IMG/VR virus record: IMGVR_UViG_3300006919_000305
Coordinates: 1 to 28,345 of that record
DNA length: 28,345 nucleotides
Reading direction: 5' to 3' (one strand)
Source: a virus
Below, one piece after another: positions 2,574 to 20,003 of the stretch (its first letter is position 1; each line of letters starts with the position of its first letter). Under the pieces are notes generated by a model. The model was not told the DNA's origin, did not search any database, and saw only the letters and a list, made by a program, of their open reading frames with translations. Both the position numbers and the translations under genes were made by a program.

Positions 2574-2603
2574 TATTGAATACCCATTTTGGCGTATTCA
2601 ATA
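2574..2603 (-). promoter_or_regulatory. 10-bp hairpin in the hsp20 leader
   Basis: TATTGAATAC (2574-2583) pairs perfectly with GTATTCAATA (2594-2603) around a 10-nt loop. It lies between the late box and the AGGAGG site of hsp20, so it would form at the 5' end of the late mRNA. It could stabilise the message; it does not cover the ribosome site. It is not followed by a clean T-run. Confidence 0.45.
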
Positions 2604-2604
2604 G

Positions 2605-2612
2605 TATTTATA
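2605..2612 (-). promoter_or_regulatory. T4-type late promoter box before hsp20
   Basis: TATAAATACTATT on the minus strand is a very good T4 late promoter match. Transcription would start around 2598, within the leader hairpin and about 50 nt before the hsp20 ATG. No gene overlaps it, which makes chance coding similarity impossible. Confidence 0.7.
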
Positions 2613-2621
2613 TAATTATGA

Positions 2622-2834
2622 TTTTTTCGGTTTCAAGCCTTAAAAAATCTAAAAGAGGCAGGCTTCTTTAAGTTTTTTACTGAAACCAGGCGCAACTGCC
2701 AAAAACATAGTCGGTTTTAAACTCTCGCCAAACACCGACAAAACTCTATGGTGGTTTTTTAGGAGACCACCAACTCCAGCGACACACATTAAATCGTGTC
2801 CTACACCACTAGGTCTTACGAACTGCCTAGCGCT
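2622..2834 (-). ncRNA. Unidentified pseudoknotted structured RNA between S21 and hsp20
   Basis: No gene covers 2547-2856. Read on the minus strand, this stretch folds in series. Hairpin CTAGG/CCTAG is at 2826-2830/2809-2813. Hairpin GACAC/GTGTC is at 2781-2800. An H-type pseudoknot follows: GGAG:CTCC (2774-2777/2762-2765) interlocked with GGTGGT:ACCACC (2766-2771/2750-2755), loops TT and TAAAAA. The stem GTCGGT:ACCGAC (2734-2739/2710-2715) has a loop GGCG that can pair with CGCC at 2689-2692. Last is a long imperfect hairpin closed by GGTTTCA:TGAAACC (2681-2687/2629-2635) with a T-rich 3' side. The pseudoknot resembles PK1 of tmRNA, but I find no tRNA-like domain or tag reading frame. A weak -10 (2835-2840) precedes it. 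The family is unknown to me. Confidence 0.6.
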
Positions 2835-2856: not shown

Positions 2857-3066
2857 CTAAAAACCGTCTTTTAGCTTTTGGAGCCTTTGTTTTTTCAACC
2901 AATTTACTCTCATTTCTTTAGCTTTTCTAACTTTTTTTTCAGACGGTTTCTCATAATATTGCTTCGCTTTTAACGTTTGTATAATGCCTTCTTTTAAAAC
3001 TTTCTTTTTTAAAACACGCATTGCCTTTTCTAAGTTACCGTTTCTTACTTCAACTTTAATTGACAA
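2857..3066 (-). CDS. rpsU: Ribosomal protein bS21 (phage-encoded)
   Basis: The 69-aa basic protein begins (M)SIKVEVRNGNLEKAMRVLKKKV and ends in Lys/Arg-rich helices, as in bacterial bS21 (about 70 aa). bS21 binds the 30S platform near the anti-Shine-Dalgarno end of 16S rRNA. The start is TTG at 3064-3066, chosen because AGGAGG lies eight bases upstream and the family begins exactly there; a longer ATG frame would add 13 residues and overlap the upstream gene. The upstream oxygenase stop (TAA, 3068-3070) is one base away, so the two are coupled. Marine phages are known to carry S21; the likely role is to join host ribosomes and bias initiation toward phage mRNA (inference). Confidence 0.9.
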   Translation of the reverse strand: MSIKVEVRNGNLEKAMRVLKKKVLKEGIIQTLKAKQYYEKPSEKKVRKAKEMRVNWLKKQRLQKLKDGF

Positions 3067-3067
3067 A

Positions 3068-3619
3068 TTAATTACCTCCTTTCTTAATATCTCCATTATA
3101 GGCAATAGAAATTCTTTTAAATTCTGATGGTGTTATAAAGTGATATAACATTGAGTTAAAAATCACTAAATCACCTGTACTTACCTTTAATCTATAATAT
3201 TCACTATTATATTGATTATAATCTTTTACCATATCATTATTTTGCCTTGCTAATAATGATTGCATTGGATTTAAAAAAACAATCTCTCCGTCTGTGGATA
3301 ATGGATAATAAACAGCAGATAACAAGCACTCTTTGTGATTGTGTGGAAAGGTTATTAATTTATCGTTGTTAACGTTTGTCCAAGCTTCTTTAAGATATAT
3401 TTTATATTTTGTATCAGTATATATCTTATTATAAAATTCTGTCATTAAATCTAATACAGTGCCATTCAATACATTAAATTTTGAATCATTTAATATTGAT
3501 GTCATATCTTTATTGGCATTTTGTAAAGAGTTTTCTTCGGCATATTCTACAAATGGTTTATTATCAAAACCACTTAAATTTGCTTTTGTAATTCCTGTAC
3601 TAAAAATATTTTCTATCAT
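3068..3619 (-). CDS. 2-oxoglutarate/Fe(II) oxygenase-like protein (TIGR02466 type)
   Basis: The 183-aa protein has the motif H93-N-H95 followed by LLSAVYYP, distal H160 (LYHFITP) and R169 (KRISIAYN), the full facial triad and 2OG-binding arginine of the family. The ATG at 3617-3619 is preferred over an upstream in-frame ATG because GGAG (3627-3630) precedes it and the upstream extension would run through a strong hairpin. The N-terminus MIENIFSTG mirrors the oxygenase at 419-982, but the two differ strongly elsewhere. It lies between the AAA+ gene and S21, one base from the S21 start codon. A substrate in ribosome or translation proteins is tempting given S21 and known 2OG ribosomal hydroxylases, but unproven. 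Confidence 0.83.
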   Translation of the reverse strand: MIENIFSTGITKANLSGFDNKPFVEYAEENSLQNANKDMTSILNDSKFNVLNGTVLDLMTEFYNKIYTDTKYKIYLKEAWTNVNNDKLITFPHNHKECLLSAVYYPLSTDGEIVFLNPMQSLLARQNNDMVKDYNQYNSEYYRLKVSTGDLVIFNSMLYHFITPSEFKRISIAYNGDIKKGGN

Positions 3620-3630
3620 TAATTTTCTCC

Positions 3631-8786: not shown

Positions 8787-9407
8787 CTACAGTGTTACTT
8801 TTGTTATATCTTCACCTATTTTACCTCTAAAATAAAGGTTAAACGCCAAGGAGTATCTCTTTTCTTGTGATTTGTTTTTCTCTACACTGTGTGCTAAATA
8901 ACTAGGAAACAATAATATTTTACCAGGTGTTACAGCAAAATTGTAATTCTCACAATTATAGTCTGTTGATTCTGTATAATCTAAATATATTATACTTTGA
9001 AACGGAGTTGAACCGGTCAAAGGTCTATCAAATGAAATATCACCTGAATTTTTTGGATGATCTAAGTAATAAACACCACTTAGTATAGAGTTTCCGTGTA
9101 TATGTGGTTGTGCCCAATCACCTGGATGATGAACATTAATCCAAGAATTTAATACTTCAATATTAATGTTTCTTTTAGATTTAAAATAATCAAATACGTA
9201 CCTTTCAGCACATTTTATTATACTCTTTTCCAGGTCAACAAATTCTGGTTGTTTTAATATAAACTTATCGTTTGTAAAATCACCATTACCAATAGGCATT
9301 CTTTCATAATTTATTTGTTTTGCTTTTTTTAACCATTCGTCTTTTACAGGAATATGATCCTCGTAAACAACAGTAGGAAATAAATTATGTACTCTGTACT
9401 CAGGCAT
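8787..9407 (-). CDS. 2-oxoglutarate/Fe(II) oxygenase (TIGR02466 type)
   Basis: The 206-aa protein is the best family match of the set: FPTVVY near the N-terminus, W89-INVHHPGDWAQPHIHGN with metal ligands H102 and H104, SGVYYLDHP, a GDISFDRP strand, then PGKILLFPSYLAHSV with distal H173 and KRYSLAFN with R184. All residues for Fe(II) and 2-oxoglutarate binding are present, so it is likely an active oxygenase with unknown substrate. Its start overlaps the peptide deformylase gene by eight bases, and it is the last gene of the gp55-to-deformylase transcription unit. Confidence 0.9.
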   Translation of the reverse strand: MPEYRVHNLFPTVVYEDHIPVKDEWLKKAKQINYERMPIGNGDFTNDKFILKQPEFVDLEKSIIKCAERYVFDYFKSKRNINIEVLNSWINVHHPGDWAQPHIHGNSILSGVYYLDHPKNSGDISFDRPLTGSTPFQSIIYLDYTESTDYNCENYNFAVTPGKILLFPSYLAHSVEKNKSQEKRYSLAFNLYFRGKIGEDITKVTL

Positions 9408-10660: not shown

Positions 10661-12372
10661 ACTTGTGCAATCCTTGTAAAGTTGTGTTCCTTTTCAAATC
10701 TAATTGTATTAGTAAACTTATCAAATAATATATCTCCTTTATGTGATATAATAAAGATATTTTCTTTTGACATTGTATTCATTATCTTAAAAAAATCATC
10801 TGTACCTTGTCCATCTAATGACGAATCAAATATCTCATCTAAAACCAATAAGTTAGTATTGGTACTATTTTTCATTTTTGCAATAGAACGCCAAGTAAAT
10901 AACAATGCAAGGTCTATTCTCATTTTCTCACCCTCACTAAAGTTATTATAATTAAAGGTATCTCTAAATCTACTTTTTACTGTTTCGTTAAACTCTTCAT
11001 CTAAATGAAACGATACAAAGAAATCCATTGATTGTAAATACTGATTAATTAATGTATTCATAATAGGTAAGTATTTTTTAATTATCTTTGCTTTTGCACC
11101 TCTATCGTTTAATATTTCTCTTAATATATCAACATATGCTTTTTGTTCTACTACATTATCTAATTCTTTTTTAGCTTCATTTAAATTTGTTTGTAATTGT
11201 TCTAATTGTTGTTCGATTTTACTAGCGTCTGTTTGTTTATTTTCTAATAATAATATTTCTTCGTGTATCTTATCACTATATTTTTTTAATTCGTCAATAG
11301 ATGTATTGATTTTTACCACATTTAAATTTAAATCAGATAATTTCTTAGATATTTGGTCAAACTCTTTTATTTTTTCTTCGTTTTTAGATATTTCTTCTAA
11401 TAGGTTTTTTACACCATCTTCCAATACTGTTATCTTATTCTTTTCCTGTACAATCTTTTCATCTTTAAAATCTTCTTCTAATGGTTGTGTACAAGTAGGA
11501 CAAGTATCATTTTCTTCAAAGAAAGATAAACTTTTTTTATGATTTTCTAAATTTTGTTCTATCTTTGTTTCTAATTTATATAACTTTTTTAATTTATTAT
11601 CTGTTACATCTTTATCTGTTAATTTAACATTTGTCTTTTCAATCTCATCATTATACTTGGCAATCTTTTGTCTATAATCTTGTAGGTCTTCCTCATTCTT
11701 TTTAATAGTATCTTGTTTATAATCTTTATCACTAACATTTCTATTCTTAATTTCATTATAATGTTTAGTTTCTAATTCATATTTTGATTCTAGTAAATCA
11801 GCTTTATGTTTAATTTCTGTTACTGTTTTCTGTAAATCAGATTGTTGACTTCTCAATATTAAATCCATTAAACCAAAAACTCTAATATCAAGTATCTCTT
11901 CTACCACTTCTCTTCTATAACGTGGTTTCATTTTCATAAATGGTTCGTATGATGAACTACCTAATATAACAACTTGAATAAAAGAACGATAGTTTAGTTT
12001 CATAATATTAGTTTCTAAGTATTTTTGATAATCAATACTAGAAGCTTCTTGGTTTAATAAAACACCATCCTCATATATTTCAAATATGTTTGGTTTAATA
12101 CCTCTAATAACTTTGTAAGATTTAGTACCAACTTGAAAGTGTATCTCTACTTCAGCGCCACTTGAATTAATTGTATTTACCATTTGTTCTTTTTTAATTA
12201 ATCTAAACGGTTTATTAAATAAAACAAAACATAAAGCATCCAATAATGTTGATTTACCTGCACCGTTTGTACCAACAATTAATGTGGTCGGTGCCTTATC
12301 TAACTCAACTTCAATAGGTGTATTACCTGTTGATAAAAAGTTTTTCCATTTTATCTTTTTAAATATTATCAT
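10657..12372 (-). CDS. 46: Recombination nuclease subunit gp46 (SbcC/Rad50-like)
   Basis: The 571-aa SMC-like ATPase has Walker A GTNGAGKST (34-42), a long coiled coil on both sides of a zinc hook CPTC (291-294), an ABC signature NFSEGEKMR (477-485) and Walker B NLLVLDEIFD (507-516). With gp47 it forms the Mre11-Rad50-type nuclease that resects DNA ends for recombination-dependent replication and degrades host DNA. Length matches T4 gp46 (560 aa). In the operon it is separated from gp47 by an oxygenase gene; starts and stops overlap by 1-4 bases throughout. Confidence 0.96.
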   Translation of the reverse strand: MIIFKKIKWKNFLSTGNTPIEVELDKAPTTLIVGTNGAGKSTLLDALCFVLFNKPFRLIKKEQMVNTINSSGAEVEIHFQVGTKSYKVIRGIKPNIFEIYEDGVLLNQEASSIDYQKYLETNIMKLNYRSFIQVVILGSSSYEPFMKMKPRYRREVVEEILDIRVFGLMDLILRSQQSDLQKTVTEIKHKADLLESKYELETKHYNEIKNRNVSDKDYKQDTIKKNEEDLQDYRQKIAKYNDEIEKTNVKLTDKDVTDNKLKKLYKLETKIEQNLENHKKSLSFFEENDTCPTCTQPLEEDFKDEKIVQEKNKITVLEDGVKNLLEEISKNEEKIKEFDQISKKLSDLNLNVVKINTSIDELKKYSDKIHEEILLLENKQTDASKIEQQLEQLQTNLNEAKKELDNVVEQKAYVDILREILNDRGAKAKIIKKYLPIMNTLINQYLQSMDFFVSFHLDEEFNETVKSRFRDTFNYNNFSEGEKMRIDLALLFTWRSIAKMKNSTNTNLLVLDEIFDSSLDGQGTDDFFKIMNTMSKENIFIISHKGDILFDKFTNTIRFEKEHNFTRIAQV

Positions 12373-12953
12373 TCTTTATCCCACATTACATTACCTGACA
12401 CACTTATTCTTTCCACATTTGATTTAAATGGTGCTACGTGATGTCTTAGTTTTGCATTAAATATAAAAGCATCTCTTTCGTTTGGCATAAATGCTCTTTC
12501 TGATAATACATAATCTTGTGTTTCTCCATAGTTAAATACTACACTGCCTGGCCCGAAATCATTTGATACAGATTCAGCATTTTCTAATTTTATTAATTCA
12601 GGTACTTGTAGATATATTACAAAAGATAATTCACCACTATGAATATGTGGAGGATTAAAATCACCTGCTTTCATAAAATTAATCCACAAATTTTTTACTC
12701 TTAATAAGTCTTTTTTGGGTTCTCTTTGTTCTATGAAACTATTATATGAGTTTACATAATCAGTTAAATGTGGTGTAAATTTTTGTGCAAACCATTTTAT
12801 ATCTTCATCTTCATATTGATTTTCTTTATTTAAATGTCCTGCTAATTTATTTCTATAATCAATAGTAGTTTGTCTACCTCTATCTAGTAATTCTTTTCTA
12901 AACTCTTCGTCTATTTGAAAATGATATAATAAAGGACCAAAGTTATAAAACAT
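12369..12953 (-). CDS. 2-oxoglutarate/Fe(II) oxygenase-like protein between gp47 and gp46
   Basis: The 194-aa protein has the core W90-INFMKAGDFNPPHIHSG, with ligands H103 and H105, then LSFVIYLQVP, a distal HH pair (171-172, RHHVAPF) and R182 in ERISVSGN. This fits the 2OG-Fe(II) fold, although the SGVYY strand is replaced by SFVIY, so it is a divergent subgroup. It shares one base with the gp47 stop and overlaps the gp46 start by four bases. It is therefore locked into the recombination nuclease operon and made in step with gp46/gp47. Substrate unknown. Confidence 0.82.
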   Translation of the reverse strand: MFYNFGPLLYHFQIDEEFRKELLDRGRQTTIDYRNKLAGHLNKENQYEDEDIKWFAQKFTPHLTDYVNSYNSFIEQREPKKDLLRVKNLWINFMKAGDFNPPHIHSGELSFVIYLQVPELIKLENAESVSNDFGPGSVVFNYGETQDYVLSERAFMPNERDAFIFNAKLRHHVAPFKSNVERISVSGNVMWDKE

Positions 12954-18031: not shown

Positions 18032-18685
18032 TTAGTCGTTATTTGGTCTATATTTGGTGGGAAGACCTAGGTAAAATCTTTCATCATATTTTTTTTCATT
18101 GACACCATCATCTTCATTGTAATGTAAAAATACTTGTGCGTGATTTAAACCTTTTAATGGTTCTCTCCAATGTATAACATCACAACCTCTATAAATTATA
18201 GCTTCACCTGGTAACATATAAATGGGAACATCTTTACCATTTTTATCTAAAACAAACATTGGCCAATTATAACTTTCACCATTCTGTATATTTTCATTAT
18301 TATAACCTAAACATAATGTCATAGAAAAATCACAAGACTTTCTATCTTTGTGTCTAATTAATTCCGATTCAAAAGTATATAATCTATGATATGAATAAGT
18401 AGGTACTAATTTTTTACCTATTAATTTACCAACTTCAGGCATAATTAATTTTAATAAAGTATCACAGATAGGGTCACCGTATTTACTGTAATCACCTGGA
18501 GCTTGTGCGTCTTCAAATGTTCCGTGATATTCTCCCTCATATTCTAAATCATTATTTTCTAATAAACACAATCTGGTTGCTTGATCTTTAATATGCTCAT
18601 ATAATAAAATACAAACATTTTTATCTATGATATTGTTTATTTTTAAATATTTATTTTCTTCAAAAAATTTAATTGAATCGCTCAT
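18032..18685 (-). CDS. 2OG-Fe(II) oxygenase-like protein (HxD subgroup, 217 aa)
   Basis: The protein has the metal motif H112-K-D114 (LIRHKDRKSCDFSMTLCLG), a PGEAIIYRG turn and distal H172 (DVIHWREP), followed by HAQVFLHYN. The usual 2OG-binding Arg after the distal His is replaced by an HAQ stretch, so this is a separate subgroup, and co-substrate binding may rely on another residue. Its ATG overlaps the stop of the next oxygenase gene upstream by four bases. The combination of HxD, HWREP and QVFLHY is one I associate with marine phage oxygenases of unknown substrate. Confidence 0.8.
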   Translation of the reverse strand: MSDSIKFFEENKYLKINNIIDKNVCILLYEHIKDQATRLCLLENNDLEYEGEYHGTFEDAQAPGDYSKYGDPICDTLLKLIMPEVGKLIGKKLVPTYSYHRLYTFESELIRHKDRKSCDFSMTLCLGYNNENIQNGESYNWPMFVLDKNGKDVPIYMLPGEAIIYRGCDVIHWREPLKGLNHAQVFLHYNEDDGVNEKKYDERFYLGLPTKYRPNND

Positions 18686-19428
18686 TTAAAAGGTGCTCCT
18701 AAACTCCATAAAACTAGTGAATATCTAGTTCCTCTTGTTACTGGTGTTACACAATGATATTGAAAAGAAGGAAATACTATTACTGATCCTTGTACTCTTG
18801 CTTGTGTAACCTCTGAAAATCTTTCGTGTGAATGTGGACCAAAGTCAAACTTTAAATTACCACCATCATAATCTTCGCCAGGATTTAAATTTATAGTAAC
18901 ACTTAATTTTCTAATTCTGTTTATGTAATTTTTATTCATAGTAAACCCTTCTTGTAGTTTACTTTCTTCTTGTCCGTGTAATCCAGGTATTAGTCTTTTA
19001 TATCTGGCGTGCCAATCAGTAGCACCATCATTATGCCAACCATAAAATCCTGTGTTTTCATATTTTGTAAATTGAAAATCTTCCGAAGCTTCTAAAGTAT
19101 AATGCCATCCAGCATTTTTATTAGCTTTGTGTACAAAAGGCATAACTAAATCATACAACCAAGGTTCATTTAACCAAACAACTTCACTATCTCTAATATA
19201 TGTTTTTTCTGTATCTAAACCTTCAACTTGCATTTCTTCAACCGTTTTATCGGTTTGAGGAACTGTTTTGTCATCACTTTTTTCAATGTGACCTCTAGTT
19301 ATAGCTCTTGTAGAATTGCCTTGTGCTATCTGTTCATTTATTTTTTGATTACCAATAGAAATTATCTTATGGCAATCTTCGGCGTCTAAAGCACCTTCAA
19401 ATACCCAATATGGTTCTTTAACTAACAT
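18682..19428 (-). CDS. Prolyl 4-hydroxylase-like 2OG-Fe(II) oxygenase (248 aa)
   Basis: A P4Hc-type domain is visible: FQFTKYENTGFYGWHNDG with ligands H132 and D134, then LSVTINLNPGEDYDGGNLKF, VIVFPSFQYHCVTPV with distal H225, and GTRYSLVLW with R235. The last residues are LGAPFK, nearly the same as LGPTFK in the neighbouring oxygenase at 19446-20003, which indicates tandem duplication. It differs by an insert (about 137-168) and a longer N-terminal half. All active-site residues are present. The family hydroxylates prolines or other residues in proteins; the phage target is unknown. Confidence 0.88.
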   Translation of the reverse strand: MLVKEPYWVFEGALDAEDCHKIISIGNQKINEQIAQGNSTRAITRGHIEKSDDKTVPQTDKTVEEMQVEGLDTEKTYIRDSEVVWLNEPWLYDLVMPFVHKANKNAGWHYTLEASEDFQFTKYENTGFYGWHNDGATDWHARYKRLIPGLHGQEESKLQEGFTMNKNYINRIRKLSVTINLNPGEDYDGGNLKFDFGPHSHERFSEVTQARVQGSVIVFPSFQYHCVTPVTRGTRYSLVLWSLGAPFK

Positions 19429-19445
19429 AAATTTTATTTATCCTC

Positions 19446-20003
19446 TTATTTAAATGTCGGACCGAGTGTCCAACCCACTAAAACCTTTCTAACACCTGAA
19501 GTAACAGGATGTACTTTATGCCATATGAAAGACGGAAAGGATATTACCGTACCTAACACTAAATCATTTAGTATAATATTTTTATCTAATTTTTTAGGTG
19601 TAGGTGTGCATAGTTCAAACTCACCACCTTCATAATCTTCATTTAAATTTATTGTGAAACTAATTTTTCTTATTTTACCATCATCATAGGGTTTTGTATG
19701 TGAATCTATATGCCAATCATAATGGTCATTTATTCCATAGATTGAATATTGTAAAGGTTCTAATTTATCTATTTTAAAATTCCAATTAGTTCTTCTATTA
19801 TGTTGTTCAATTGTCTTTAGAATTTTATTATTTAAAACTTTGTTGTCTTTAATCCAACTTACCTTACCACTTCTATTTGCATTATTACCGTCTTGTATTC
19901 TTGCTTGATCTATTTTTAATTTTTCACCAATGTAAATAATATTATCACAAAACTCTTTATCAAAAGCTCCGATAGATATACAATGATTATTATCTAAGTA
20001 CAT
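19446..20003 (-). CDS. Prolyl 4-hydroxylase-like 2OG-Fe(II) oxygenase (185 aa)
   Basis: This is a compact P4Hc-type protein: YDWHIDSH with ligands H98 and D100, ISFTINLNEDYEGGEFEL, ISFPSFIWHKVHPV with distal H162, and VRKVLVGW with R172. It shares the order, spacing and C-terminus (LGPTFK) of the 248-aa oxygenase that follows it in the operon, so the two are paralogues. Its ATG overlaps the UvsY stop (TAATG), making it the second gene of the unit. The catalytic set looks complete. Confidence 0.88.
   Translation of the reverse strand: MYLDNNHCISIGAFDKEFCDNIIYIGEKLKIDQARIQDGNNANRSGKVSWIKDNKVLNNKILKTIEQHNRRTNWNFKIDKLEPLQYSIYGINDHYDWHIDSHTKPYDDGKIRKISFTINLNEDYEGGEFELCTPTPKKLDKNIILNDLVLGTVISFPSFIWHKVHPVTSGVRKVLVGWTLGPTFK

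Follow-up and report, generated by a model that had tools for sequence, protein, structure and literature searches.

The DNA analyzed here, referred to as the window, is the whole of the virus record IMGVR_UViG_3300006919_000305 (28,345 bases), in which a T4-like gene order encodes a clamp loader, the gp45 sliding clamp, Hsp20, a gap, bS21, a 2OG-Fe(II) oxygenase and an AAA ATPase. The gap spans 310 nt (2547-2856) and is bounded by two minus-strand genes, those for the bS21 ribosomal protein (2857-3069; PF01165) and the Hsp20 small heat-shock protein (2097-2546; PF00011), which are the constant upstream and downstream neighbors, respectively, of the minus-strand RNA described below. It holds no gene on either strand save one 46-aa frame, which is absent from relatives, and a coding explanation was rejected on that ground. 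The host of the virus is very probably SAR11, because, within the phage collection, the cultured phages most similar to it in Hsp20 both infect Pelagibacter: Mosig EXVC030M, at 83% identity, and HTVC008M, at 62%. Few organisms in the sea are as numerous as SAR11 bacteria and their myophages. Several short 2OG-Fe(II)-oxygenase-like proteins are also encoded within the 28 kb (419-982, 3068-3625, 8787-9407, 12369-12953 and 18032-20003), and the one at 3068-3625, the sole one of the five compared with Pfam, matches PF13759.

Comparison with relatives makes it virtually certain that the bS21-Hsp20 gap carries a real, conserved structured RNA, which is shared by T4-like phages of Pelagibacter (SAR11), the isolates HTVC008M and Mosig EXVC030M among them. 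When 2.9 million viral contigs were searched with the bS21 protein as the sole criterion, at least 80 loci, a redundant set, were obtained. In 78 of the 80 loci listed, a hairpin termed P2 (loop YYCRUAA) lies within 170 nt of the bS21 stop, and, of 1785 background windows from other parts of these loci, 1 matched the same descriptor; the RNA is missing from 2 of the 80. When P2 was counted with no requirement for pairing, 30 G-U and 5 A-C combinations were present, an excess showing that the RNA has the same sense as bS21 and lies on the minus strand of the window. Thermodynamics alone is weak evidence, as single-sequence folding of the minus strand gave z = -1.5 for 2615-2838 and z = -3.0 for the whole gap, and the plus strand of the gap folded more strongly (z = -4.2); the comparative evidence is strong. 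The gap measures ~230 to 510 nt among relatives, and more where a gene is inserted, and the RNA itself ranges across the family from ~110 to 420 nt, with a long form of ~400 nt. The 110 members compared were obtained with a k-mer filter and not by phylogeny, and compensatory changes are therefore not counted as independent events; base pairs were counted by scripts because MAFFT misaligned the stems of P1-P2 and the short knots. The preliminary description of a gene-free stretch of 310 bases with a structured minus-strand RNA is borne out by the conservation and compensatory changes among relatives, and its proposal of a phage-encoded non-coding RNA on this strand gains further backing from the G-U excess and from a late-promoter-like box; its observation is thereby confirmed and its interpretation partly supported.

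The predicted fold, shown by this comparison to be conserved on the bS21 sense strand, begins with a constant 5′ hairpin and, in most members, finishes with an H-type pseudoknot; optional modules lie between the two. The order from 5′ to 3′ is late box, P2, PK-A, an optional central domain, HP3, PK-C and PK-D. The box resembles the T4 late promoter and precedes P2 in 109 of 110 RNAs, compared with 1.4% of random 30-nt windows. In the window it lies upstream of the RNA (2837-2844) and reads TATATATA, a variant found in 54 of the 110 RNAs with P2, while 55 carry NATAAATA, and the box ends 9-14 nt before the loop motif; the late-box motif also precedes structural genes in the window. P2 (2807-2832), which is probably the 5′ end of the RNA, pairs CGCTAGG with CCTAGTG beneath an invariant UCRUAA loop (here CAGTTCGTAAGA, 2814-2825). 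This loop may resemble a tRNA anticodon loop or 16S 1495-1500, a likeness that is not used as evidence. Where bS21 lies directly upstream, a closing helix, P1, pairs the strand just past the bS21 stop with the strand just past P2, and scores of at least 18 were reached by 62% of P1 strands with their own partners, 23% with swapped partners and 3.6% when shuffled. P1 is treated as optional, because neither the window nor the members in which a gene intervenes show a clear copy of it, and a small hairpin in the window (GGACAC...GTGTGTC, 2781-2801) sits where other members have the P1 3′ strand. The upstream strand of P1 lies before the late box and its partner lies inside the RNA, and a helix spanning the box can therefore form only in read-through RNA, so that two forms of the RNA, one long and one short, may exist. 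Of the features by which the new family is recognized, the window copy carries P2 with its UCRUAA loop (2832-2807), the late box (2844-2837) and at least one H-type pseudoknot (PK-A, with PK-D as a candidate), and P1 is absent.

PK-A (2750-2777) is an H-type pseudoknot with an A-rich last loop, in which GGAG (2777-2774) pairs with CTCC (2765-2762) and GGTGGT (2771-2766) with ACCACC (2755-2750), leaving loops of TT and TAAAAA. It is present exactly as first described and recurs in relatives with different pairs; compensating changes in pseudoknot stems, on which the preliminary description had staked its proposal, occur in the PK-A-type stems of these relatives. A blind descriptor located PK-A-like knots (score of at least 28) in 33% of 112 non-redundant relatives compared with 0.9% of shuffles, and PK-D-like terminal knots in 78% compared with 5%. 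Pairing within each of the 25 PK-A and 23 PK-D examples arises by construction, because they were selected for complementarity, and the informative measures are the shuffle rates, the variety of pairs and the drop on swapping: nearly every stem position shows 2-4 Watson-Crick pair types (e.g., GC/TA/CG/AT), and exchanging partners between RNAs lowers pairing from 100% to 50-78%.

HP3 (2710-2739) is a hairpin pairing GTCGGT with ACCGAC around an inner GCGAGAGT (GNRA-like) motif, and homologues with other outer pairs are found in four members (L007, L073, L036 and L333). The core of PK-C (2669-2700) combines a mini-hairpin, GGCAGTTGCGCC (2700-2689), with pairing of TGGTTT (2688-2683) to AAACTTA (2675-2669). 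Among relatives located by loop sequence alone, the inner stem of PK-C covaries (GGTTC:GAACT, GGTTG:CAACT and GGTTT:AAACT) and the outer stem, weak in the window copy, occurs as GTGG:CCAC, GAGG:CCTC, GAGTT:AACTC and ATGTT:AACAT. A second pseudoknot had been proposed between GGCG (2726-2729) and CGCC (2689-2692), which would join HP3 to PK-C; it is unsupported, because its strands belong to separate modules that each occur alone (HP3 without PK-C in L036 and L073, PK-C without HP3 in L034, L292 and L294). The terminal pseudoknot PK-D (2620-2659) is formed by GCCT (2659-2656) with AGGC (2640-2637) and GATTTTTT (2649-2642) with AAAAAATC (2627-2620). In the window, where its stem S2 is worth ~-3.4 kcal/mol, PK-D has a competitor in a nested hairpin of -15.6 kcal/mol, which is the closing hairpin originally noticed, although the position of that hairpin corresponds to the conserved pseudoknot. 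A T8 run comes immediately after the terminal pseudoknot in L082, L084 and L088, where PK-D may also serve as a terminator.

The central domain, which the window copy does not contain, comprises four helices around a junction and a pseudoknot between the 5′ joining strand and the last hairpin's loop. In 18 members aligned by sequence, 96.4% of cells are paired and both sides have changed in 14 of 23 pairs, including a T-A to C-G change within the knot in three sequences; none of 500 shuffles reached such pairing, and slid versions of the structure paired at 34-48%. Covariation thus argues decisively for the predicted cloverleaf-pseudoknot. A model built from this domain (R1, with rough E-values) also detects the module alone in L259 and L375-L379, where no bS21 or Hsp20 was found in the sequence examined, and at least the central module therefore does not need bS21. 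These lone copies (in L259 at 1316-1419 on the minus strand) belong to another phage lineage and in one case lie near a GP88-family gene; upstream of the module in L259, L376 and L379 are further structured units, CTGATCCCTGGTCC...GGACCTGGGATCAG, repeated in one intergenic stretch. Gapped central-domain patterns found no match in bacterial genomes, and a looser pattern gave 6 matches that the model did not confirm.

At least eight module architectures occur among the 110 members, with the 5′ hairpin constant throughout, and the architecture of the window (P2, HP3 and PK-C, with PK-A and PK-D) is seen again in four further members. Pattern scans with two module motifs placed 91 members beside bS21 and/or Hsp20 wherever the flanks allow a check; in each of the six exceptions (L259 and L375-L379) the central module stands by itself, and, L259 excepted, the remaining matches look like coding sequence. 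The box and P2 are kept in several members, including HTVC008M, in which a gene separates bS21 from the RNA, and in L012, L027, L031, L046 and Mosig the RNA is kept with a gene between it and hsp20, so that the element behaves as an independent locus. Entire modules, both pseudoknot and cloverleaf, are exchanged, and one is common to another phage lineage; this offers an unusually clear view of RNA evolution by cassettes. HTVC008M (L163 region, NC_020484 91768-91968) carries a minimal form of ~115 nt with P2, a second hairpin and one terminal pseudoknot; the second hairpin repeats the CUCGUAAAU loop, which suggests that the loop is the functional element. HTVC008M has one more TTCATAAGACCT, at the junction of two genes, which was judged to be due to chance.

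The downstream gene has a late promoter of its own, TATATAAATA (2605-2614, minus strand), followed by a leader hairpin with a bulged G (2576-2601, minus strand), a neighboring element that lies outside the RNA. A TATAAATA box and leader hairpin precede hsp20 in 99 of 118 gaps. In the window (2614-2547), L366 and L367, this leader runs from the late box through a hairpin of the form ..AATAC-G-CC-loop-GG-GTATT.. to ACTTGCTTTAAAAGGAGG. It looks like a conserved 5′ element of Kyanoviridae, because the cyanophages P-SSM2 and S-PM2 show the same hsp20 hairpin with a ACTCGCTTA..AAGGAG layout. The modular RNA resembles T4-type late transcripts such as this leader in having a TATAAATA-type box followed by a hairpin within ~6-12 nt; the hsp20 leader, however, is short and leads to a Shine-Dalgarno sequence, whereas the modular RNA continues through its pseudoknots with no shared ORF. 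In two relatives a glutamine riboswitch lies shortly downstream of hsp20 (L018, 3049-3097; L060, 3033-3085).

The explanation that best fits these observations is a phage non-coding RNA gene, of which the window copy would be one member of a new modular family; taken as a whole, it has a little less than an even chance of being correct. The late box ahead of 109 of 110 RNAs, together with the separate box of hsp20, indicates that the RNA is very likely its own, stand-alone late transcript, and we strongly infer that a T4-type late promoter belonging to the RNA itself drives its late synthesis from P2 onward, independently of hsp20. On the other side, a P1 helix that spans the late box sits more easily with read-through from bS21 than with a late start. 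More weakly, the RNA may act in trans during late infection as a protein- or ribosome-bound RNA, with translation the most plausible process; its candidate partner would be phage bS21, alone or as part of the 30S subunit, the pseudoknots would form a compact scaffold that resists nucleases, and the UCRUAA loop would be the recognition element.

That the RNA acts on translation or on bS21 is a tentative proposal, plausible but rather less than evenly favored, and the ribosome- or S21-directed factor suggested in the preliminary description is thus possible. The proposal draws on the adjoining viral bS21 gene and on earlier findings: bS21 of Bacillota binds the large, structured OLE RNA (PMC12054373), bS21 of HTVC008M is incorporated into 70S ribosomes of E. 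coli in work cited in PMC9723584, and phage bS21 is described as expressed late in other phages (PMC9723584). The independent life of the central module in phages with no bS21 found speaks against it. OLE RNA and the phage RNA share a large, elaborate fold and a functional link to bS21, which is binding for OLE and gene neighborhood alone for the phage RNA. They differ in that OLE RNA is ~600 nt long, is not described as modular and has as its bS21 site a Shine-Dalgarno/anti-Shine-Dalgarno mimic (PMC12054373), whereas the phage RNA has neither an Rfam match nor the OLE architecture, and inspection of P2 by eye recognized no such mimic. A bolder version, in which the late RNA teams up with the bS21 of its phage, whether free or 30S-bound, and so turns SAR11 ribosomes toward the late messages of the phage, and in which pseudoknot and cloverleaf modules are swapped like cassettes between phages to fit their hosts, is unlikely to hold in this joint form; if true, such a ribonucleoprotein switch would be an independently arisen viral counterpart of the bS21-OLE RNA connection. 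bS21 is among the commonest ribosomal proteins carried by viruses and its role is unsettled, and a conserved RNA tied to its gene in nearly all related genomes is a testable candidate partner for that role, the more so as two cultivated phages with a cultivated host, HTVC008M and Mosig, carry it.

The same transcript could instead be a cis-acting 3′ UTR of the bS21 mRNA, whose knots block 3′-to-5′ exonucleases and fix the 3′ end, giving abundant bS21 with no role in trans. This is a possible reading on the unlikely side, to which the position of the RNA directly after bS21 in most members, the P1 helix that begins just past the bS21 stop and prefers its own partner, and the pseudoknot that forms the end of most members (with T8 after it in the three loci above) all lend weight. 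It fits poorly with the late box that separates bS21 from P2, with retention of the RNA where a gene has come between the two, and with elaborate covarying domains that exceed what a 3′ block requires. Distinctly improbable is a sponge, decoy or defense-interfering RNA that titrates a host RNase, a CsrA-like protein or a defensive RNA-binding protein, with module exchange as the mark of an arms race; the gain and loss of modules behind a constant 5′ hairpin and the module common to an unrelated phage lineage would suit it, yet it lacks a candidate target. The long regulatory leader envisaged at the outset, which would control hsp20 by sensing temperature, a metabolite or a protein, is disfavored and very unlikely: the RNA does lie directly upstream of hsp20 in most members, with no clear terminator between them in the window, but hsp20 has its own late promoter and leader hairpin, the RNA persists where a gene separates it from hsp20 or from bS21, and the modular RNA was not found in S-PM2 and P-SSM2, which have hsp20.

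Across ~30 members scanned against all 4227 families of Rfam 15 (riboswitches, tmRNA, GOLLD, wcaG, manA and others), the RNA had no match at gathering score, and nothing relevant appeared at E ≤ 10 in the window or the long form; the sole matches nearby were tRNAs and the glutamine riboswitch, outside the RNA. Some GOLLD/ROOL RNAs are linked to phages or to mobile elements, and the modular RNA resembles them as a pseudoknotted, phage-linked RNA without known function; it differs in being much shorter (~110-420 nt), in its mosaic modules and in its bS21-hsp20 site. GOLLD and ROOL are large, ornate, pseudoknotted RNAs of unknown function (PMC12286853). A search of mostly open-access journal literature found no description of such an RNA, and a pelagimyophage survey assigns S21 to no specific gene cluster and leaves such an RNA unmentioned (PMC7029224); the modular RNA is a new, previously undescribed family of Pelagibacter myophages.

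The likeness to the PK1 region of tmRNA holds for the shape of one knot, and a further resemblance is the run of several H-type pseudoknots whose third loops are A-rich, but a degenerate or second tmRNA is hardly credible: the tmRNA covariance model RF01849 has no match at E ≤ 10 in the window or the long form, ARAGORN finds no tRNA-like acceptor domain and nine members have no tag reading frame in common, so that the defining features of tmRNA are refuted. A true, alpha-type two-piece tmRNA, which RF01849 does match, is a separate gene in HTVC008M (NC_020484 145103-145414), Mosig (MT647606 111505-111808) and Melnitz (MZ577097 45973-46390; for Melnitz and Mosig see also PMC9004378). Mosig_00015 and Mosig_00014, annotated as hypothetical proteins inside the RNA of that phage (L162 3064-3312), are probably not genes.
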